Positions 25,234 to 34,062 of a stretch of DNA of 41,125 bases are shown here, one piece after another. Position numbers and translations under genes: made by a program. A model generated the notes under the pieces. That model had not been told where the DNA came from. It was given only the letters and a program-made list of their open reading frames with translations, and did not search any database. The stretch comes from Candidatus Bathyarchaeota archaeon (GTDB lineage: Archaea > Thermoproteota > Bathyarchaeia > 40CM-2-53-6). The stretch lies in the NCBI GenBank assembly GCA_005882895.1, contig VBBD01000017.1, positions 1 through 41,125 of the forward strand. The letters are read 5' to 3'. Positions within the stretch are counted from its first letter, which is position 1. Each line of letters begins with the position of its first letter.

Positions 25234-26640
25234 TTGTTCCAACGGGTCCCCACCGGCATCCCTGAGCTGGACGATGTGATAGAGGGTGGGTTGCCCAAAG
25301 CCGGTCTATTTCTTGTGGCTGGAACTCCGGGGTCTGGTAAGACAGCTTTTAGCGCGAGATTCCTCTACGAGGGTATCATCAAGGGCGACAGGGGAATCTA
25401 TGTCTCCTTCGCCGAGGGACGTGACGCGTTTTTCTCGGAAACGGCGCGGAGTGGTTTGGACTTCGCGAAGGCCGACGAAGCGGGCATGTTCCTCTACATG
25501 GACCTTCTAACCGTCAAGAACGAAGGTATTCCCGCTGTGACCCAGTCCATAGTTGACGCGGTCCTTGACTTCAAAGCATCTAGGCTTGTAATTGATTCCT
25601 TTTCTGCAATGGCCCAAGCGGTCCCTGAACTGATAGAGGCCAGGTCAATACTTCACACGATTCTCGGAAAGATAATCAGGCAGGCTGAATGCACGACTCT
25701 CCTGATCTCAGAAGTCCCCGTAGGCACTTCGAGGCTGGGCCTAGGGATTGAAGAGTTCGTGGCTGATGGAGTCCTCAAGTTCACTCAGAAGGAGATCGAT
25801 GGGCGGGTGATTAGAAATCTGGTCATTCTCAAGTTACGCGGGACAAAGATAGGGAGAAGAGAGCACATGTTCACCCTCGATGGCGGGTTTCGGATGCTAA
25901 GCCCCTTCGACTCCTCACAGGCTAACAACGGACACTCCTATCCCGTCATCAAGAATACAGCGTCACATTCCTCTACGGGAATTAACGGTCTCGATACTAT
26001 TCTTGGGGGAGGCCTCAAGCGGGGAAGTCACATTCTCCTGGAGGTCGGAGAAGATGTCTCGTCAACTTCTCTGATGAGTTTTCTCACCCCGATAATATCA
26101 AACACTGTCAAGTCCGGCGACCAAGTAATCTGTATTCCGGTCAACGGAATGTACCCTGAAGAACTGCAAGAAACCCTCAGAAAGTCCGTTCCCGAAGGAC
26201 CAGCGTCAATGCAAGTTTTCGACATCACAGGAAGGGGCGGTCCGAACACCGTGGACCTTGGAGGTGCAACCGTCCTCCAGCCCTTTGACATGTTCTGGAA
26301 GACAGCTAAGAAGCTGAGGAAACCTGAGAACCGATTGCTGAGCATAATTGGCTTCGACGCCCTGGAGGCGAGATATGCGAAGGACCTCCCCGCAATGCAG
26401 GGTCTAATAATCGAGACCATCGCCAAGGTGAGAAACGCGGGCGACATCATGATATCAATAGCTCGGCCATTCTCCAACACCCTGCGAGAACTTGCAAGCG
26501 CCTCAGATGTTCATTTGAGACTTGCCCAGTATGACGGCGTTCTTTGCCTTTTGGGCGTAAAACCGAGGACCGATTACTATGGTGTCTCTCTCCCAGACAA
26601 GGGTGCGCATGCTCAGATCGAACTGGTCCAGGTTTCCTAG
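25234..26640 (+). CDS. KaiC-like ATPase with degenerate second domain
   Basis: 468 residues, TTG start. Domain 1 (about 1-235) is a RecA/KaiC ATPase: PTGIPELDDVIEGGLPKAG, Walker A GTPGSGKTAF (about 30-39), Walker B RLVIDSFSAM (about 115-124). The usual paired catalytic glutamates are reduced to FAEG. Domain 2 (about 245-468) starts with the KaiC entry TGINGLDTILGGGLKRG, but the Walker A position reads EVGEDVSSTS without GK[ST], so it probably does not bind ATP in the normal way. The following small gene starts 1 nt after the stop. Archaeal KaiC-like proteins act in signalling and motility rather than a clock; the target here is unknown. Confidence 0.88.
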   Translation: MFQRVPTGIPELDDVIEGGLPKAGLFLVAGTPGSGKTAFSARFLYEGIIKGDRGIYVSFAEGRDAFFSETARSGLDFAKADEAGMFLYMDLLTVKNEGIPAVTQSIVDAVLDFKASRLVIDSFSAMAQAVPELIEARSILHTILGKIIRQAECTTLLISEVPVGTSRLGLGIEEFVADGVLKFTQKEIDGRVIRNLVILKLRGTKIGRREHMFTLDGGFRMLSPFDSSQANNGHSYPVIKNTASHSSTGINGLDTILGGGLKRGSHILLEVGEDVSSTSLMSFLTPIISNTVKSGDQVICIPVNGMYPEELQETLRKSVPEGPASMQVFDITGRGGPNTVDLGGATVLQPFDMFWKTAKKLRKPENRLLSIIGFDALEARYAKDLPAMQGLIIETIAKVRNAGDIMISIARPFSNTLRELASASDVHLRLAQYDGVLCLLGVKPRTDYYGVSLPDKGAHAQIELVQVS

Positions 26641-26641
26641 C

Positions 26642-26977
26642 ATGGCCGCAACAGTGGGCACGTCGTTAGATCGGCCGCTGATAGAATCCATCGACACAGC
26701 CCTCAGTGCTCTTGGTACCAGTACGAGAGATTCGGTTCTGCTCTATCTTCGTAAGAGATATTCCATTTCTCTGGAGGAGACCCCTCAGAGGATGGACGAA
26801 TTCCTCCAAGCTCTCCATGCCCTACTCGGATACGGTGCAAGAGTGATAGAGAAACTAGTAATCGCTAGATTGGTCGAAACCAATGAGATCCCACTTGCCG
26901 AGGCTAGAGGTAGAAACCTGGCCGAGATTGTGACTCTCTTGAGCAAGGGGCGCAATAAGGCTAGGCCGACAGTCTGA
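26642..26977 (+). CDS. Small KaiC partner protein, VIEK (NitrOD5-like) family
   Basis: 111 residues from ATG 26642, 1 nt after the KaiC stop (the frame is open to 26579 within kaiC). The core (about 18-85) is ALGTSTRDSVLLYLRKRY, then MDEFLQALHALLGYGARVIEK and LVIARL. This resembles the short all-helical 'Nitrosopumilus output domain' found at the ends of thaumarchaeal signalling proteins, as I recall that family; a profile search is needed to confirm. A paralogue at 28647-29057 carries FGNGATVIEKVIIKDL and sits in the second KaiC operon. It is likely a binding partner or output of the KaiC protein. Confidence 0.75.
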   Translation: MAATVGTSLDRPLIESIDTALSALGTSTRDSVLLYLRKRYSISLEETPQRMDEFLQALHALLGYGARVIEKLVIARLVETNEIPLAEARGRNLAEIVTLLSKGRNKARPTV

Positions 26978-27026
26978 GAAACCCCTCTCAGCGCGACACC
27001 AATTTCTACGCGAGAAGTTCTCTCGC
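26974..27026. terminator. Two hairpins between convergent KaiC operons
   Basis: CTGAGA-N6-TCTCAG (26974-26991) includes the stop codon of the plus-strand partner gene. GCGAGA-AGTTC-TCTCGC follows at 27010-27026. Both are perfect 6-bp stems in the short convergent gap. Confidence 0.45.
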
Positions 27027-27078
27027 ACTTCAGCGACCTTTGCCAAGAGCTGACCATTGTCGGCAATCTCTGCATAGC

Positions 27079-27165
27079 TCACTTGTCTTTCTTGGCGGCC
27101 TTCGCGAATAATTCGAAGAACTTGTCCGCCCCAGTTGGCGGGGTTTTCTTCTCGGGCTCAGGCTG
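27079..27165 (-). other. Out-of-frame C-terminal tail of the membrane protein gene
   Basis: Directly beyond the TGA of the membrane protein, the +1 frame continues to a TGA at 27079 and encodes a Pro/Glu/Lys linker (QPEPEKKTPPTG) and ADKFFELFAKAAKKDK. The last part mirrors the end of the neighbouring KaiC protein (SEKFMDLFRGAAEKRK). I read this as the true C-terminus, separated by a one-base frame change at about 27160-27168 (natural indel, assembly error or programmed shift). Confidence 0.5.
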
Positions 27166-27505
27166 ACGGTTTTGCCTGGCTTTCGAATCGTTTTGCAAGC
27201 CCGAAGACCCCAAGGAAGAGAAGCGCTCCTGCTACTGCTGTGACCATTGAGCTGAGGATCGTAGTGGTCTCTCCTACTGAACTGATCAGACTGGCTATTT
27301 GGTCAGTTGGCAACGAAAGTGTCAGAACCAAGCCCACAACGCTTTGAATCGTCAGCAACGAAAATGCCACAATTATCATGGTCCAAGCACGAAACGAGCC
27401 CGTTATCCTCGTCACTTTGTATGCGTAGAATACAACGCCTGCTTGGAAGATGAGTTCTAGGACCGCCATGAAGTAGAGCGTTGGTAAAACTATAGGATCT
27501 AGCAC
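27158..27505 (-). CDS. Small membrane protein of the KaiC operon
   Basis: 115 residues from GTG 27505, behind a GGAAG site and 13 nt after the KaiC stop; a longer open frame to 27607 would overlap kaiC. Three or four membrane helices: about 3-30, 38-62 and 80-105. It then ends ESQAKPSA at a TGA. In the +1 frame, a charged tail continues that resembles the C-terminus of the KaiC protein. No catalytic motif. The arrangement resembles the membrane anchors of archaeal sensory systems and could bring KaiC to the membrane. I do not recognise the family. Confidence 0.65.
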   Translation of the reverse strand: MLDPIVLPTLYFMAVLELIFQAGVVFYAYKVTRITGSFRAWTMIIVAFSLLTIQSVVGLVLTLSLPTDQIASLISSVGETTTILSSMVTAVAGALLFLGVFGLAKRFESQAKPSA

Positions 27506-27518
27506 TCTTCCTATCGCC

Positions 27519-28358
27519 TCACTTTCGTTTCTCCGCGGCCCCACGGAAGAGATCCATAAATTTCTCCGACGCAACCCTCCTGGGCGAGCCAGTGATGACC
27601 CCTTCATAGTTCGTGAACGCGGACTCTATCTTGATCCCTGTGGGGGTGATCTCAAACTCTCTAAGTCGCTTATCATGATCGCTTCCCCTCATCTTCAGAA
27701 CTACCAAAGCCTTCCGCATCGAGGACTCGATCTCGACTGGCTTCAGTGCAACGATGCAGTCCACTAAGAAGCTCAATCCTACTTCGGTAACCGCGAATGA
27801 CCCTCCTGTCATCTGCGGAGACTCCCAGACCAGCAAGGAGCTTATTCCCTTGGTCTTGAGGTGCATGATCAAGCGGTACGCTTCTCGCCTCAGCTCGCTT
27901 TCCTTCACGAACATGACGAGATGGCTCAACGAGTCCACAACGATTCGTCTGGGCTCGATGTCTCGGAAGGATTCGTCGAGGAGACTCTCTCCCTCCGACT
28001 CAAGCATCAGGTTTGGTGAGGTGCATACGATTCGGAACTTGTTGTTCTCCTCTAGCTTTCGAAGGTCCCATCCGAGGTTTTTCGCGTCTCGGTAGATCTG
28101 GTCAGGCATTTCTTCGAAGGTCACGTAGATCCCGGGTTCACCAAGCTTGACCCCGTTAACCAAGTACTGGAGGGCTAGAGTTGTCTTTCCGCAGCCAGCG
28201 CTCCCAGCCACCATTACCGCGTCTCCTTCCATGAATCCGCCATGTAGCATCTCGTCCAGCTCAGTTATTCCGGTCCGGACCCTCCCAGCCTCCGCGACCC
28301 TTCCTGTGAAGAACTGGTCAACTCCAGAGACTCCTGTTCTAGAACTTGGTGTTGTCAA
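27519..28358 (-). CDS. KaiC-like ATPase, single domain
   Basis: 279 residues, TTG start inside the end of the upstream winged-helix gene (20-nt overlap). One KaiC domain: TGITELDEMLHGGFMEGD (about 29-46), Walker A GSAGCGKTTLALQ (about 51-63), intact paired glutamates in YVTFEEMP, and Walker B RRIVVDSLSHLVM (near 135). It resembles single-domain archaeal KaiC-like proteins, including FlaH-like relatives, that bind ATP and pass signals to a partner. The C-terminus is extended and ends SEKFMDLFRGAAEKRK, a helix nearly repeated in the tail of the downstream membrane protein. It is the third gene of a four-gene operon. Confidence 0.9.
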   Translation of the reverse strand: MTTPSSRTGVSGVDQFFTGRVAEAGRVRTGITELDEMLHGGFMEGDAVMVAGSAGCGKTTLALQYLVNGVKLGEPGIYVTFEEMPDQIYRDAKNLGWDLRKLEENNKFRIVCTSPNLMLESEGESLLDESFRDIEPRRIVVDSLSHLVMFVKESELRREAYRLIMHLKTKGISSLLVWESPQMTGGSFAVTEVGLSFLVDCIVALKPVEIESSMRKALVVLKMRGSDHDKRLREFEITPTGIKIESAFTNYEGVITGSPRRVASEKFMDLFRGAAEKRK

Positions 28359-28650
28359 TTTTCTCCACCCCCTCTAGATTCCTGAGATGTTTCGCGATGG
28401 CGTCCAAGACTTCCCGGTCCCTCGCACGGTCCAAGAGCAAAACCTCCGAGCGACCAATCCTCCTCGTCTTAAGTACACCCAAGTTCACAAGACCCCGGAC
28501 ATCCTCTTCAATCGAATTCCCTGTTCTCCCAATACGACGCGCGACGCTATCGAGCGTGTCGATGAGTCCAGGGTTGCGGTGGAACAAAACCAGCAAGTCT
28601 CCCGTAACCTCTGAAGCAAGAAGCGTTTCCAGCATCTGTGCAGCGCTCAC
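28339..28650 (-). CDS. Winged-helix protein of the KaiC operon
   Basis: 103 residues. Helices around TGDLLVLFHRNPGLIDTLDS (about 16-35), RRIGRTGNSIEEDVRGLVNLGVL (38-60) and the wing KTRRIGRSEVLLLD (61-74) fit a small winged helix-turn-helix domain, followed by a C-terminal helix that may dimerise. Its ATG overlaps the upstream gene's stop by 4 nt, and its end overlaps kaiC by 20 nt, so all are translated together. It could bind DNA as the output of the KaiC system or regulate the operon. Confidence 0.75.
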   Translation of the reverse strand: MSAAQMLETLLASEVTGDLLVLFHRNPGLIDTLDSVARRIGRTGNSIEEDVRGLVNLGVLKTRRIGRSEVLLLDRARDREVLDAIAKHLRNLEGVEKIDNTKF

Positions 28651-29057
28651 TTTGTCCGCGCCTCCGCCGCGCAGGCTTCTCTTGCCATCTCAAGCGCTTC
28701 TCCATAGTTGAAGGGTCCTTGAGAAGTGTAGGGAATATTCAGCCTGCGGAATAGATCTTTGATTATAACTTTCTCGATGACTGTCGCCCCGTTGCCGAAT
28801 ACTGACTGCAGTTTTTTCTGAAACTCCTTTGGGTCGGAGGCTTTGTCAAACAAGCCCTGGTCAGTTAGAACTCCCAGGATAGCCTGGCCTAGCGCCCCTC
28901 TTATCCCGTCGCCGATGCTGTCTCTAAGCAACGAGGAGAAGGTTTTCTCTTGCGCCACCACGGAGTTCGTCCTATTTGTCTTCCAGTTTGTTCGGAAATC
29001 GTTCTGTGGTATCGTAGAAACGGGCGAACCCATCGCTAGAGCTAGTCTCCTGCTCAT
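28647..29057 (-). CDS. KaiC partner protein, VIEK (NitrOD5-like) family, second copy
   Basis: 136 residues, ATG start directly behind a TATA box. The first 45 residues are variable; the core (about 45-110) contains SIGDGIRGALGQAILGVLTD, then DPKEFQKKLQSVFGNGATVIEK and VIIKDLFRRLNIPY. It aligns with the partner protein at 26642-26977 over the EF...L...G-x-G-A-x-VIEK...I...L motif. It is the first gene of the operon, followed by winged-helix, KaiC and membrane genes. The shared domain in both KaiC operons argues for a direct role with the ATPase. Confidence 0.72.
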   Translation of the reverse strand: MSRRLALAMGSPVSTIPQNDFRTNWKTNRTNSVVAQEKTFSSLLRDSIGDGIRGALGQAILGVLTDQGLFDKASDPKEFQKKLQSVFGNGATVIEKVIIKDLFRRLNIPYTSQGPFNYGEALEMAREACAAEARTK

Positions 29058-29082
29058 TTGTTTCGTTGAGACCCGCTCAAGC

Positions 29083-29090
29083 GATAAACT
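29083..29090 (-). promoter_or_regulatory. TATA box of the minus-strand KaiC operon
   Basis: AGTTTATC on the minus strand is about 29 nt before the ATG at 29057, fitting a leaderless transcript. It touches the outer arm of the inverted repeat at 29089. Confidence 0.5.
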
Positions 29091-29186
29091 CGTTGTAACC
29101 GAACCCTCTCAATTTTAGTTGTTACACTATCGGTGTCCTTTGCGTGAAGACTTGATAGTGAACATCGGAAGCTAGGTTACAACAAG
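29089..29186. repeat. Nested inverted repeats in a divergent promoter region
   Basis: Outer arms CTCGTTGTAACC (29089-29100) and GGTTACAACAAG (29175-29186) pair with one mismatch. Inner arms GTT-A-CACTATC (29121-29131) and GATAGTGAAC (29154-29163) pair with one bulge. The whole could form a cruciform, or serve as paired operators for the KaiC operon and the opposite gene. Confidence 0.6.
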
Positions 29187-29272
29187 TGTATTCGGCCTGG
29201 TTGGGGGGTTTATCGTGAGCTGGGCAGGATGCGGTCTCCTATGGTAACAGTCTTCCATGAGACGCTAGGCTC

Positions 29273-29692
29273 ATGTTTCGCTTCAACCCTCAAAAACATG
29301 CTCGGCTCTGCAGTTTGCGAATCCGTGTACGGGGTCCTAGAGAGAAATGGGATTCCCAGGGGGAGATTGGCAATAGGTTTGATGCCACCGTCACGGTGCT
29401 AACCAAAGTCTTGGGTACATCTTCGCGAGTGCTCGTTCATAGAACCGTTGTTGAGATGTTTCGTCAGTACTCTCAACGGGCCGATTTTTCCTATCAAGAT
29501 TCTCTGAGAGATCGATTGATCGTCTTGAAGGAGGCAGTTGTCGCGAACCACTTGATCCCGAAGGGCCGGCATGATGGCATAGACTTTGACAGCGTGGAAA
29601 ATACGAGACTTACTAGCCCTAGAGAAACTGGCAATCACGACGGTTCCTATGACGATCTGGACGCTGCGAAAAAGAGCGTCCACGCGCCCTGA
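29273..29692 (+). CDS. Hypothetical protein upstream of the RAM-domain gene
   Basis: 139 codons from an ATG. The first 35 look weak, but residues 36-95 (FDATVTVLTKVLGTSSRVLVHRT..., QRADFSYQDSLRDRLIVLKEAV) read as a natural helical domain. The LGTSSR stretch recalls LGTSTR in the KaiC partner protein at 26642. The competing minus-strand frame at 29399-29791 is less protein-like. Start and function are uncertain. Confidence 0.45.
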   Translation: MFRFNPQKHARLCSLRIRVRGPREKWDSQGEIGNRFDATVTVLTKVLGTSSRVLVHRTVVEMFRQYSQRADFSYQDSLRDRLIVLKEAVVANHLIPKGRHDGIDFDSVENTRLTSPRETGNHDGSYDDLDAAKKSVHAP

Positions 29693-29774
29693 GTGATAGA
29701 TTATGGGTCGGCTGGCGTATCGGTGAGGGATATTTCGGGTAAGCCGCGAATAGCTAGCTTTTCTTGCAAGAAAT

Positions 29775-29783
29775 GCATAAATT
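29775..29783 (+). promoter_or_regulatory. TATA box of the RAM-domain/kdp region
   Basis: GCATAAATT lies about 46 nt before the ATG at 29824. No comparably good TATA box is seen in the 48 nt before kdpA, so the RAM gene and kdp may share this promoter. Confidence 0.4.
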
Positions 29784-29823
29784 AGCGCCACGGCCGCGGG
29801 TGCGAAGCCGGTCGAGTCAAAAC

Positions 29824-30138
29824 ATGGCCTCGCTCATCGCGTTCGTTAGCATATTCGTGGAGTCGCCCTACATGGACGATGTAGTGCAGGCCCTATCCCG
29901 TCTCGACAAGGTAGTCGACCTCTACGAGGTCACTGGCGAGTTTGATATTGTCACCGTCGTCTCGGCCTCAGACATTGAGGAGTTTCGAGATGTCCTCAAG
30001 AACAAGATAATGAAGGTCAAGGGCGTCAAGAGTACTGTAAGCTCGATCGTTCTAAAAACCCATAAGGGTTCCGGGTCGAACGGCGATATCTTGAACGCGA
30101 CCCCTGCTGTGGCGGCTTCTTACAGTCACCGGAAATAG
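29824..30138 (+). CDS. Standalone Lrp/AsnC ligand-binding (RAM) domain protein
   Basis: 104 residues from ATG 29824 (the frame is open from 29764). Residues 1-78 form an AsnC-type alpha/beta RAM domain: SLIAFVSIFVESPYMDDVVQ, then VVDLYEVTGEFDIVTVVSASDIEEFRDVL, and GVKSTVSSIVLKTHK. There is no helix-turn-helix, so it is a stand-alone sensor ('SraM-like') that could bind an amino acid or other small ligand and regulate by pairing with a full Lrp protein. A low-complexity tail follows. It ends 48 nt before kdpA on the same strand, so a link to potassium transport is possible. Confidence 0.85.
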   Translation: MASLIAFVSIFVESPYMDDVVQALSRLDKVVDLYEVTGEFDIVTVVSASDIEEFRDVLKNKIMKVKGVKSTVSSIVLKTHKGSGSNGDILNATPAVAASYSHRK

Positions 30139-30186
30139 ATTAACCTCCCTTGAACTCTGAGTCCGTTCTATGGAGGCTGTTAGAGG

Positions 30187-31905
30187 CTGATCGACGCGAG
30201 CAATCTATTCATACTCATTGCGATTCTAGTTATAGCCATCCTATCGGGTCGCCTCCTAGCTCCTCACGTTACTAGAGTTTTCACCCTAGCCCCCAGCCGA
30301 CTGGACAAGGTCCTCAATCCCATCGAGAGAGGAATCTATCGACTCATCAGCGTAAATCCGGCTCGCGGCATGGGCTGGAAAGAATACTTCCTCGCCGCCC
30401 TCTTTGTCAATATCTTCCAGATGGCAATCGCATTCGTAATATTCTCACTTCAAGACGTACTTCCATTGAACCCTCAGGGGTTTCCAGGACTCTCATGGGA
30501 CTCGGCGTTCATGCAGGTCATCAGCTTCGGCACCAACACCAACCTACAACACTACAACGGCGAAGGACTCTGCAACCAACTACCGAACTGCGCTGCATTG
30601 ACGCCCGGGGTTCCTGGTCTTTCATATCTAAGCCAGATGATGGCCGTCCAGTTCCTACAGTTCACAAGCGCAACCACGGGAATATGCGTCGCTGTCGCAA
30701 TGATTCGAGGTTTCATCACTCACTCGAAGGACTTGGGCAACTTCTACGTTGACTTCACTAGATCTCTAACAAGAATACTGCTCCCTCTGTGCTTCGTTGC
30801 CTCGCTAGTCTTTGTCGGGCTAGGAACTCCTCAGACATTGACTGGATACCAGATCGTTAAGACAGTGGAGGGTGCGACAACCCAAGCTACTCAGACAATC
30901 CTAGTCGGGCCTGTCGCTTCGCTTGTCAGCATAATGCAGCTAGGCACTAATGGGGGAGGATACTACGGGGCGAACTCAGCCTATCCATTCCAGAACCCGA
31001 GCCCTGCATCCGACATCTTTCAGATCTTCCTGATGCTTCTCATCCCCACATCGCTATGTTTCGTATTCGGTCAATTGATTGGCAAGAAGCGAGAGACTCG
31101 CCCTATTCTCTGGGGTGCCTACGCCCTCTTTGCCCTTGACCTCCTGATCGCCTTCACGCCCAATCTTCCAGTGGTAGGTCCAGGTATGGAGGTCAGGTTT
31201 GGAGGCTTCTTCTCAACCTTCTGGACAGTCGTCACCACAGCAGTAACCACCGGCTCGCTCAACGCATCTCTGTCAGCAGTGAACCCGCTAGTCATCCTCT
31301 CCGCCTTCAACGGAATGTTGATCCAGGCAACTCCTGGGGGGAAGGGCGTGGGAGTGATGTACATGGTCATGTTCATTGTCCTCACAGTATTCATTGTCGG
31401 CCTAATGTCAGGTCGGACCCCTGAGTACTTGGGGCTGAAAATAACCGCTCGAGATGTCAAGCTGGTAATGATCGCATTTCTTGTCCACCCGGTTATCGTC
31501 CTCATTCCGATGGTCCTCGCCTATTCGACCGGGGCTGCGAGCGCTATCGGGGTCGGGACGAATTCTGTCGGGTTCACCAAGATCTTCTACGAATTCACGT
31601 CCGCCGCTGCGAACAACGGGAGCGATTTTCTCGGGGCAACGGCCAACACGCCGTTCTTCAACGTCTCAACAGCGATCGTCATGTTTCTGGGACGCTTCAC
31701 ACCGATCGGTCTATTGCTCGCGTTGGGTGGATCTATGATCAATAGAAAGAGACTCACAACAGAAGCCGGCGTGAGGACTGACAGCCCTCTCTTCTCGCTG
31801 ATTCTTGTAGGAAGCATACTTGTCCTTGTCCTCCTCACCTTCTTCCCGTTCCTCGCACTTGGCCCGATTCTAGGATTCTTCCAAGGACGTGTAAATGGAT
31901 TCTAG
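30187..31905 (+). CDS. kdpA: KdpA, potassium-binding subunit of the K+ ATPase (CTG start)
   Basis: 572 residues if started at CTG 30187. KdpA is the channel-like subunit holding four selectivity-filter loops, visible as TNTNLQHYNGEG, LGTNGGGYYGANSAYPFQNP, a GMEVRFGGFFST loop and AAANNGSDFLG. About ten membrane helices are present. The first ATG (30370, MGWKEYF) would drop the first conserved helix, which is clearly encoded upstream (NLFILIAILVIAILSGRLLAP). That stretch has no ATG, GTG or TTG. CTG 30187 follows a GGAGG at 30172-30176 by 10 nt, and an in-frame TAG lies at 30181. A one-base error upstream is the alternative: a six-codon frame from ATG 30170 ends across the CTG. Confidence 0.93.
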   Translation: MIDASNLFILIAILVIAILSGRLLAPHVTRVFTLAPSRLDKVLNPIERGIYRLISVNPARGMGWKEYFLAALFVNIFQMAIAFVIFSLQDVLPLNPQGFPGLSWDSAFMQVISFGTNTNLQHYNGEGLCNQLPNCAALTPGVPGLSYLSQMMAVQFLQFTSATTGICVAVAMIRGFITHSKDLGNFYVDFTRSLTRILLPLCFVASLVFVGLGTPQTLTGYQIVKTVEGATTQATQTILVGPVASLVSIMQLGTNGGGYYGANSAYPFQNPSPASDIFQIFLMLLIPTSLCFVFGQLIGKKRETRPILWGAYALFALDLLIAFTPNLPVVGPGMEVRFGGFFSTFWTVVTTAVTTGSLNASLSAVNPLVILSAFNGMLIQATPGGKGVGVMYMVMFIVLTVFIVGLMSGRTPEYLGLKITARDVKLVMIAFLVHPVIVLIPMVLAYSTGAASAIGVGTNSVGFTKIFYEFTSAAANNGSDFLGATANTPFFNVSTAIVMFLGRFTPIGLLLALGGSMINRKRLTTEAGVRTDSPLFSLILVGSILVLVLLTFFPFLALGPILGFFQGRVNGF

Positions 31906-34062
31906 GTGAATGCTATGTCAACAAGGTTCAGCAAGATGATGTCTGTCCGGCGACCGACGCTGGTTTCGCGGAAAGTGCTTATCGACTCGCTGGTCCGCCT
32001 AAACCCGCTCAGGCTAGTCGCCAACCCGGTGATGCTGATCGTGGAGATCACATTCTTCATTGTTACAGCCCTGGCAATCTACCCAGAAGGATTCCCCAGG
32101 GTTGCAAGCCCTTCCCTCCGATTATTCTACGTGGAGGTTGCATTGATTCTTCTGGTTACGGTCTGGTTCAGCACGTTGTCCGACGCTCTCGCGGAGAGCC
32201 AGGCGAAGAATACTGCCAACAGTCTTCGAAGACTCGAAATGGAGGTATCAAGCAAGAAGATCCTCATCGAAGAAGGCTCTAGACGAATCGTTCCAACTCC
32301 TTCCAGAGAACTTCGCAAGGGCGACCTAATTCTTCTAGAGAAAAATGACACGATTCCGATTGACGCTCAGGTCCTCGAGGGAATCGCGATGGTTGACGAA
32401 TCGCTCCTAACAGGAGAGTCCACCGCGGTCCGAAAAGCACCGGGAGACGATGTGATTGGGGGCTCGCAGGTTCTTAGTGACACACTTACAGCGAAAGTTA
32501 CGGTCAACCCTGATGAGACTTTCATCAATCAGATGATTAGAATGGTGGAGTCGTCTAAGAGGCCGAAGACTCCGAACGAGCAAGCCGTAACCATTGTGCT
32601 GATAGGGCTCACGGCGATTTTCACAATCCTCATCGGAGCTCTGCTAGGCATTTCTCTGGTTTTGAGCCTCGCAGCAGACCTATCGGTCCTGATAGCACTC
32701 TATGTCTGCCTCCTCCCTACGACGATAGGAGCACTGCTTCCCTCGATAGGATTGTCAGGCATCTCTAGGCTCTACAAGGAAAAGATAGTTGCAAAATCTG
32801 GTCGTGCGGTCGAGACCGCGGGTGATACTGATGTCATTCTTCTCGACAAGACCGGAACCATAACAGTGGGCAACAGGCAAGCAGTGGAATTCCTACCCTT
32901 TCCGGGGTTCACTGAGAGGGATGTGGGCGAGGCCGCCTTCTTGGCCTCGTGGCACGATGATACACCAGAGGGCAGGAGCCTGATCCGGCTGGCGTACGAG
33001 GACGGTTTTGTGCCCAAGGAAATGAACGCTCTAGACGCCTCGGAGGTCTACGAGTTCAGCGCTAGCACCCGAACGAGCGGCGTCAAGCTTTCCGGAGGAA
33101 CCGGCTTCATGCTTCCCAAGAGCGGCGGGACCGGCAGGGAGAGAGGAAGGCTGAGGAGAAAATTCGAACCCCACGTGGAAGGAGGTGTCCCGATCGGATC
33201 CGACGAGATAGAGATCATCAAAGGCGCCCCTGATGCCATCAAGAAAATTGTCAAGTCTGTTCCGGCTGACTACGACGAGATCGTTCAGAAAATATCTGCT
33301 GCCGGAGACACTGCCATGGCTCTTTCAAGGAATCGGGAAGCAATCGGGATCGTGAGATTGAGAGATGTTCTCAAACCCGATATCAAGGAGAAGATAATGG
33401 CGGTTAAGGTGATGGGCATTAGACCAGTCATGATAACTGGCGACCAACCTCTCACCGCTAAGAGCATAGCTGCTGAGGTGGGAATTGATGAGTTCCAGCC
33501 GGAGGCGAAACCCGAGGACAAGTACGATATCGTCAAGCGAGAACAGGCTGAGACGAGAATTGTTGCTATGATAGGAGACGGGACCAATGATGCCCCCGCG
33601 CTAGCGATGGCCGACGTGGGATTAGCGATGAATTCTGGAACTCAGGCAGCGAAGGAGGCCGCGAACATGGTCGACCTCGAGTCCAACCCGGCCAAGATCA
33701 TAGAAGTCGTGATGCTCGGCAAACAGTTGCTTATGACCCGTGGCGCTGTGACAACGTTCAGCATCGCGAACGATGTCGCGAAATATTTCGCTATTATGCC
33801 CGTGTTGTTCGCATCAACTGTTCCCGAGCTGAAGGCGTTGAACGTGCTCGGGCTTGGGCTGAACACGGCCGTTCTCTCGGCCCTTATCTTCAACGCCATC
33901 ATCATTCCCCTCCTGATTCCCCTGGCTATGAGGGGAGTCACGTTCAAGCCTTCAGGGACAATGACTCTTTTCCTGAAGAACACGATTATCTATGGGATAG
34001 GCGGAGTAATCATTCCATTCGTCGGAATCAAACTGATAGACGTGGGAATATCACTGCTCTAG
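31906..34062 (+). CDS. kdpB: KdpB, P-type ATPase subunit for potassium uptake
   Basis: 718 residues, GTG start directly after the kdpA stop. The actuator motif LLTGES is at about 168-173. The phosphorylated aspartate D314 is in DKTGTIT, and the hinge motif GDGTNDAPA is near 560. The C-terminal helices include FSIANDVAKYFAIMP. It hydrolyses ATP to drive K+ import through KdpA. Compared with the usual length of about 680, there is an insertion of roughly 40 residues in the nucleotide-binding domain after FSASTRTSGVKL: a Gly-rich and strongly basic stretch (GGTGRERGRLRRKFEP) before IIKGAPDAI. Confidence 0.96.
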   Translation: MNAMSTRFSKMMSVRRPTLVSRKVLIDSLVRLNPLRLVANPVMLIVEITFFIVTALAIYPEGFPRVASPSLRLFYVEVALILLVTVWFSTLSDALAESQAKNTANSLRRLEMEVSSKKILIEEGSRRIVPTPSRELRKGDLILLEKNDTIPIDAQVLEGIAMVDESLLTGESTAVRKAPGDDVIGGSQVLSDTLTAKVTVNPDETFINQMIRMVESSKRPKTPNEQAVTIVLIGLTAIFTILIGALLGISLVLSLAADLSVLIALYVCLLPTTIGALLPSIGLSGISRLYKEKIVAKSGRAVETAGDTDVILLDKTGTITVGNRQAVEFLPFPGFTERDVGEAAFLASWHDDTPEGRSLIRLAYEDGFVPKEMNALDASEVYEFSASTRTSGVKLSGGTGFMLPKSGGTGRERGRLRRKFEPHVEGGVPIGSDEIEIIKGAPDAIKKIVKSVPADYDEIVQKISAAGDTAMALSRNREAIGIVRLRDVLKPDIKEKIMAVKVMGIRPVMITGDQPLTAKSIAAEVGIDEFQPEAKPEDKYDIVKREQAETRIVAMIGDGTNDAPALAMADVGLAMNSGTQAAKEAANMVDLESNPAKIIEVVMLGKQLLMTRGAVTTFSIANDVAKYFAIMPVLFASTVPELKALNVLGLGLNTAVLSALIFNAIIIPLLIPLAMRGVTFKPSGTMTLFLKNTIIYGIGGVIIPFVGIKLIDVGISLL

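Follow-up and report, generated by a model that had tools for sequence, protein, structure and literature searches.

A proposed KaiC signalling locus of soil Bathyarchaeia with two ATPase–adaptor units, one of them a duplicated cassette with a candidate DNA site

We analysed a locus of KaiC-type ATPases, which are related to the cyanobacterial clock protein, in a 41,125-nucleotide contig (VBBD01000017.1; this whole stretch is called the window) from a metagenome-assembled genome (MAG) of a soil member of the Bathyarchaeia, and not of the Thaumarchaeota (genome 1.97 Mb, 87% complete). On the plus strand, a tandem KaiC (KaiC2) and its partner A converge on a minus-strand operon encoding partner B, a predicted winged helix-turn-helix (wHTH) protein, a single-domain KaiC (KaiC1) and a transmembrane (TM) protein. 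Our best explanation is an archaeal KaiC signalling locus of two ATPase–adaptor units, one of which would act as an autoregulated ATPase–adaptor–wHTH switch, and we give this explanation an even chance of being right. That the locus has a signalling role is a reasonable inference.

Results

Gene layout

The positions, strands and gene content assigned to both operons in a preliminary description of this DNA were borne out by a check of the open reading frames. The features are as follows:
25234-26640, plus strand: KaiC2, two-domain KaiC, 468 aa (profile match, motif alignment); first domain (D1) with Walker A and B, and FAE replacing the catalytic FEE; second domain (D2) without Walker A, predicted to be inactivated
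26642-26977, plus strand: partner A, 111-aa helical adaptor with a predicted PH0832-like fold, starting 1 nt past the KaiC2 stop
27158-27505, minus strand: TM, 115-aa membrane protein from a GTG start, with about four hydrophobic segments by hydropathy
27519-28358, minus strand: KaiC1, single-domain CII-type KaiC, 279 aa; Walker A/B and EE intact, T426- and S431-equivalents kept, T432-equivalent F, A-loop-like C-terminus
28339-28650, minus strand: wHTH, predicted small winged-helix DNA-binding protein, 103 aa, ArsR/NmtR-like by profile
28647-29057, minus strand: partner B, 136-aa adaptor paralogue leading the minus-strand operon
29089-29100, minus strand: candidate operator GGTTACAACGAG, upstream of B
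29175-29186, plus strand: candidate operator GGTTACAACAAG, upstream of C, oriented relative to its own gene as the other is to B
29229-29692, plus strand: partner C, third adaptor paralogue, divergent from B, apparently a frameshifted pseudogene (open-frame fragments 29229-29402 and 29273-29692)

On the minus strand B and wHTH overlap by 4 nt and wHTH and KaiC1 by 20 nt, while KaiC1 and TM are separated by a 13-nt gap (27519 to 27505); the preliminary description had the three figures right but took the last for an overlap. It had also missed the third paralogue C and the paired DNA motif at 29089-29100 and 29175-29186. The open frame of TM begins at 27607, upstream of the GTG start at 27505.

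The adaptor family and its linkage to KaiC

A common core had been noticed by eye in partners A and B. This core is present (EFLQALHALLGYGARVIEKLVIARL in A, EFQKKLQSVFGNGATVIEKVIIKDL in B), and three methods agree that the two are homologues. BLASTP of A against B gave E=5e-7, and alignment of separate A-type and B-type profiles (hhalign) gave E=2.8e-7 with a probability of 93%, compared with 0.1-0.3% for five column-shuffled controls. Iterated profile searches from A or from B each gathered about 115 open frames and picked up the opposite partner (6e-22 and 8e-26). The partner tree places A, B and C in different clades. Of 200 genomes sampled across the phylum, 86 encode the family, and in the window's genome its profile makes ten matches, equal to nine genes.

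A resemblance of the partner to a thaumarchaeal output domain had also been proposed. The likeness is real but weak: A matched NitrOD5 (PF11537) at E=0.024 (15.2 bits, below the Pfam gathering cut-off of 27), and 22 of the 72 family members did so at E<=0.1, the best of them at 2.8e-5. B gave no match to NitrOD5 in the Pfam profile search, and no match above the cut-off was found in the 61 genomes searched. A search of NCBIfam with the adaptors likewise gave no meaningful match. The adaptor was modelled with AlphaFold2 from 72 relatives, giving a confident, helical structure (predicted local distance difference test (pLDDT) 81.6, predicted template-modelling score (pTM) 0.69). The sole convincing structural match to this model found in the PDB by Foldseek was PH0832 (PDB 2P9X; template-modelling scores 0.72/0.81, probability 1.00), which the adaptor profile also matches at E=8e-7. 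The label 'DEATH-like' for such adaptors comes from the literature (PMC5847659, PMC4858521). A DEATH-fold identity was not recovered by Foldseek, the nearest death-fold entry being ASC2, a pyrin domain (template-modelling score 0.21, E of 5).

Linkage to KaiC was counted over partner clusters at 50% identity, scoring any KaiC within 1.5 kb and deriving the expectation from KaiC density. A KaiC was found at this distance in 15 of 33 clusters, against 5.8% expected, and in 11 of 29 when the window's own A, B and C types were left out. A tandem KaiC followed directly by a partner recurs in many Bathyarchaeia families, and KaiC directly upstream of a partner was also seen in other classes of the phylum (three loci: L187, L188 and L193). 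The linkage suggested earlier is thus conserved in related genomes, and the partners, as small helical proteins encoded beside KaiC, answer to the description of the archaeal DEATH-like adaptors.

Several family members have other surroundings. On contig C6 of the window's genome (L133:2121-5043), a GvpD/KaiC-like tandem ATPase of 549 aa has a partner-family gene on either side: a divergent one that overlaps it and another downstream. On contig C7 (L132:1017-3223), a partner gene overlaps the end of a 610-aa protein without a Pfam match, and eight relatives of this partner, from the genus and G020, form a cluster with no KaiC nearby. Elsewhere, a partner-type domain (G117:C68:10804-11151) is part of an open frame of 930 aa that may encode a multidomain signalling protein.

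The two KaiC proteins

Both KaiCs of the window pass the PF06745 profile (P0002, 189 bits; P0003, 191 bits; cut-off 26.6), which has 29 matches in the genome, and both fall below the cut-off of the clock KaiC equivalog circ_KaiC (TIGR02655; 85 and 164 bits, cut-off 546). KaiC1 aligns best to the CII domain of clock KaiC, over 248 residues, and groups with it in the tree (support 100/99); D1 of KaiC2 does not. KaiC1 copies were aligned from the window's locus (locus I) and from a second locus described below (locus II). All 13 of the 13 aligned copies keep Walker A/B, EE, the T426- and S431-equivalents and the GSP-R A-loop segment, and in every copy the T432-equivalent is F (the reference row in the KaiC motif alignment is a T432V variant; the wild-type row is shown in a separate KaiC1–CII alignment). 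KaiC2 combines an active-looking, CI-like D1 with a degenerate D2, and a D2 without Walker A is the state common to 17 of 18 aligned tandem KaiCs. In the exception, L135 of G018, both domains are intact, D2 is CII-like and the partner gene lies upstream, not downstream. At that locus (G018:C39) the partner, the tandem KaiC and a multi-PAS histidine kinase are consecutive genes, which may link KaiC to two-component signalling.

These active-site features bear on the idea that the locus is a KaiC timing device, an oscillator or an hourglass, with the adaptor replacing KaiB. KaiC1 is CII-like, has two of the three phosphosite residues and carries an A-loop-like tail. No KaiB was found in the 41 genomes searched, including the 87% complete assembly of the window's own genome; a KaiABC-type clock with KaiB was rejected on this result. 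A DEATH-like adaptor has been suggested as a possible substitute for a KaiB-like protein (PMC4858521). However, the T432-equivalent is F throughout, KaiC1 has no CI ring, D2 of KaiC2 has no Walker A, and the all-helical adaptor fold is unlike that of KaiB. We consider a timing device of this kind very unlikely.

Duplication of the cassette

The preliminary description proposed that one KaiC-plus-output unit was duplicated locally and that one copy then gained a wHTH and a membrane protein. Both units do pair a KaiC with a homologous partner, side by side. However, a single clade of KaiC1 and KaiC2-D1 was rejected by the approximately unbiased (AU) test (p=3.5e-7), A and B belong to separate clades, and a complete cassette occurs elsewhere without KaiC2-A. 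The proposal is therefore highly improbable, local duplication of a KaiC together with its partner being ruled out by the AU test, and only an ancient common origin of the partner–KaiC pairing seems possible.

The unit duplicated within the genus is instead, to judge from the trees, the whole C/B-wHTH-KaiC1-TM cassette, because B-I and B-II are sisters (99/97) and the locus I and locus II KaiC1s cluster together (100/99). At locus I, C diverges from B-wHTH-KaiC1-TM, which converges on KaiC2-A; at locus II, on contig C81 of the same genome, C again diverges from B-wHTH-KaiC1-TM, and KaiC2-A is missing. Locus II was found in ten genomes, with every gene intact save a split KaiC1 in G003, and the cassette gene order is kept over about ten species at the two loci.

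Beside locus I, the window holds at 29764-34062 a gene for a stand-alone Lrp/AsnC ligand-binding domain and apparent kdpA and kdpB genes. Frames of like size and placement flank locus I in related genomes.

The wHTH protein and the candidate operator

The C–B intergenic region (29058-29228) holds the candidate sites GGTTACAACGAG ahead of B and GGTTACAACAAG ahead of C. The 12-base sequence GGTTACAACNAG has only three exact matches in the 1.97-Mb genome, before B-I, before C-I and before B-II. Versions of it with minor changes are conserved in the locus I copies and ahead of B at locus II. Six genomes of the genus have both matches and mapped cassettes, and in these 11 of 12 matches to it are at cassette promoters. 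Because the motif was derived from locus I, finding it there does not count as independent evidence; its reappearance at locus II and its specificity do. Among the other exact 12-base matches inspected, most fall within open frames and none is near a partner or KaiC gene, and two sites shared by G000 and G005 sit in stretches of high similarity (83-86%) that show no sign of acting as promoters. Across the genome the 9-base core of the motif is no commoner than its reversed control (21 and 23 matches), indicating that it is not a general promoter element. A wider regulon was rejected, given the control-level core count and the placement of other matches mostly in open frames.

The wHTH matched NmtR weakly (E=0.002) and HVO_A0114 below the cut-off (E=0.0014); the weak NmtR match was all that the profile search gave towards a solved homologue. 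A cassette-type wHTH also forms residues 5-89 of a 345-aa wHTH-KaiC fusion on contig C26 of the same genome (L003:446-1483), and a similar fusion occurs in G026 (L140 9079-9999). These fusions support a functional link of wHTH and KaiC. Most likely the wHTH would act on the divergent promoters of its own cassette, reading the KaiC1–adaptor state, with DNA binding, phosphorylation and signal direction presumed.

Could the locus be a chance neighbourhood of unrelated regulators near a Kdp operon? The abundance of KaiC genes and the several other adaptor-family members in this genome would favour such encounters. Against them stand the conserved order in about ten species at two loci, the overlapping genes, the specific shared motif and the cross-class linkage, and we regard chance as extremely improbable.

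Decay of C and of KaiC1

In a six-genome nucleotide alignment, C at locus I has indels at differing places in G000, G009, G012 and G014, and an intact frame in G013 and G004; it was not found in G005, G006, G015, G017 or G001. Because the four genomes carry separate indels at different positions, C at locus I is apparently a repeatedly decaying pseudogene, and a programmed frameshift or an assembly error is unlikely. An intact C at locus I was present in both genomes (2/2) without a detected second cassette and in 0 of 9 others, counts taken from incomplete assemblies; survival of C at locus I where locus II is missing is only suggested by them.

Locus I has a deleted or broken KaiC1 in G006, G012, G014, G015 and G017 (loci L114, L117, L118, L120 and L121) and an intact one in G000, G004, G005, G009 and G013; the contig of G001 ends there. 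B and wHTH at locus I are intact in all genomes, including the five of ten without adjacent KaiC1. Omega was 0.02-0.22 for wHTH and 0.08-0.34 for B overall, and 0.04-0.22 and 0.08-0.34, respectively, among the genomes without locus I KaiC1, reflecting evident purifying selection on both genes in genomes that have lost the adjacent KaiC1. All five of these genomes retain KaiC1, within the cassette, at locus II. Either KaiC1-II serves both loci, or B-wHTH can work alone.

The latter option leads to an alternative in which the core of the minus-strand operon is adaptor B with the wHTH, a regulator with a ligand- or partner-binding protein. KaiC1 and TM would be dispensable modulators, and a KaiC would act in trans or not at all. 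Consistent with this, the five genomes with a lost or broken KaiC1 still have intact B and wHTH genes with omega values well under 1, and the motif is kept there, partly with one or two changes. However, locus II provides a complete KaiC1 in all five, in a conserved B-wHTH-KaiC1-TM order, and wHTH-KaiC fusions exist. We judge this alternative unlikely.

Discussion

From the gene content, homology, linkage, active-site state, cassette duplication, motif with its specificity, and decay patterns established above, we infer a mechanism that comprises adaptor binding, autophosphorylation, binding of the wHTH to the motif, membrane anchoring and a direction of signal flow. Its proposed steps are as follows: Unit 1: The first unit is the cassette of KaiC1, adaptor B, wHTH, the small TM protein and the divergent adaptor C. 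KaiC1, active-looking and of CII type, is probably an autokinase, and its nucleotide or phosphorylation state would set the binding of adaptor B. B, and C where it is intact, would hand the state of KaiC1 to the wHTH, which would bind GGTTACAACNAG before B and C and thereby tune the expression of the cassette itself. The TM protein may anchor KaiC1 or supply its input. Unit 2: KaiC2-A would be an independent, older pair, in which adaptor A works with an active-looking domain of CI-like type and with a second domain that has no nucleotide-binding loop.

Several observations weigh against this switch. C is broken in the window's own genome, and B and wHTH outlast the adjacent KaiC1 in five genomes, so that KaiC1 in cis is not essential. 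Eighteen of the 33 partner clusters are not adjacent to KaiC. Confidence in the wHTH model is low (pLDDT 57.5; topology H-H-H-E-E-H), and the motif core stays at control level across the genome.

A bolder extension of the autoregulated switch, which we think unlikely, is a KaiB-less, self-regulated KaiC feedback cassette, with CI- and CII-like functions split over two genes that have their own adaptors, giving a switch or timer with transcriptional feedback. The CII-type autokinase, the paired paralogous adaptors and the wHTH would then act on one operator controlling the cassette alone, and a separate ATPase of CI-like type would be supplied by the neighbouring KaiC2, whose docking domain would be dead.

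The idea of KaiC as an archaeal signalling hub served by small helical adaptors has been published before, and archaeal KaiC paired with 'DEATH domain-like' adaptors is reportedly the subject of a 2017 mBio paper by Makarova, Galperin and Koonin. A three-adaptor/wHTH/TM cassette with its own DNA site, duplication and decay was not found in the literature examined, outside which that central paper lies; the layout, the DNA site and the decay pattern of the cassette look new. Described archaeal KaiC–adaptor pairs include arCOG03758 with arCOG01174 (PMC4858521) and NitrOD2/4/5 (PMC5847659). The present locus resembles these DEATH-like pairs in having a small helical protein beside a KaiC ATPase, a weak NitrOD5 similarity and a proposed KaiC output or adaptor role. 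It differs in that a single duplicated cassette brings together three adaptor paralogues, a wHTH, a TM protein and a DNA motif of its own; moreover, no type IV pilus genes were recognised among the neighbours examined here, and the DEATH fold was not recovered.

PH0833 of Pyrococcus horikoshii is an archaeal KaiC (KaiC3) with measured autokinase activity (PMC5520375). PH0832 and PH0833, adjacent by locus numbering alone, would thus also place the adaptor fold beside a KaiC autokinase. The present locus differs from that pair in that KaiC1 consists of a single CII-type domain, the second domain of KaiC2 lacks Walker A, and a wHTH, a membrane protein and further adaptors are added. With cyanobacterial KaiC of the KaiABC clock, KaiC1 shares the CII alignment, T426, S431 and the GSP-R A-loop segment, but it has F for T432 and no CI domain, and the group searched has no KaiB in its 41 genomes. 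Haloferax CirA and CsmR offer a further parallel, a KaiC-like protein proposed to act with a transcription regulator, although the part of that source consulted describes no adaptor family or shared cassette (PMC13286277).

KaiC proteins are numerous in archaea (this genome has 29 matches), and the output is known for few of them. Here a KaiC, an adaptor, a DNA-binding protein, a membrane protein and a predicted DNA site are found together, in an arrangement that is duplicated and differently broken in sister species. Five small proteins and a single 12-base site would thus be enough to test the proposal that KaiC is an archaeal signalling hub.

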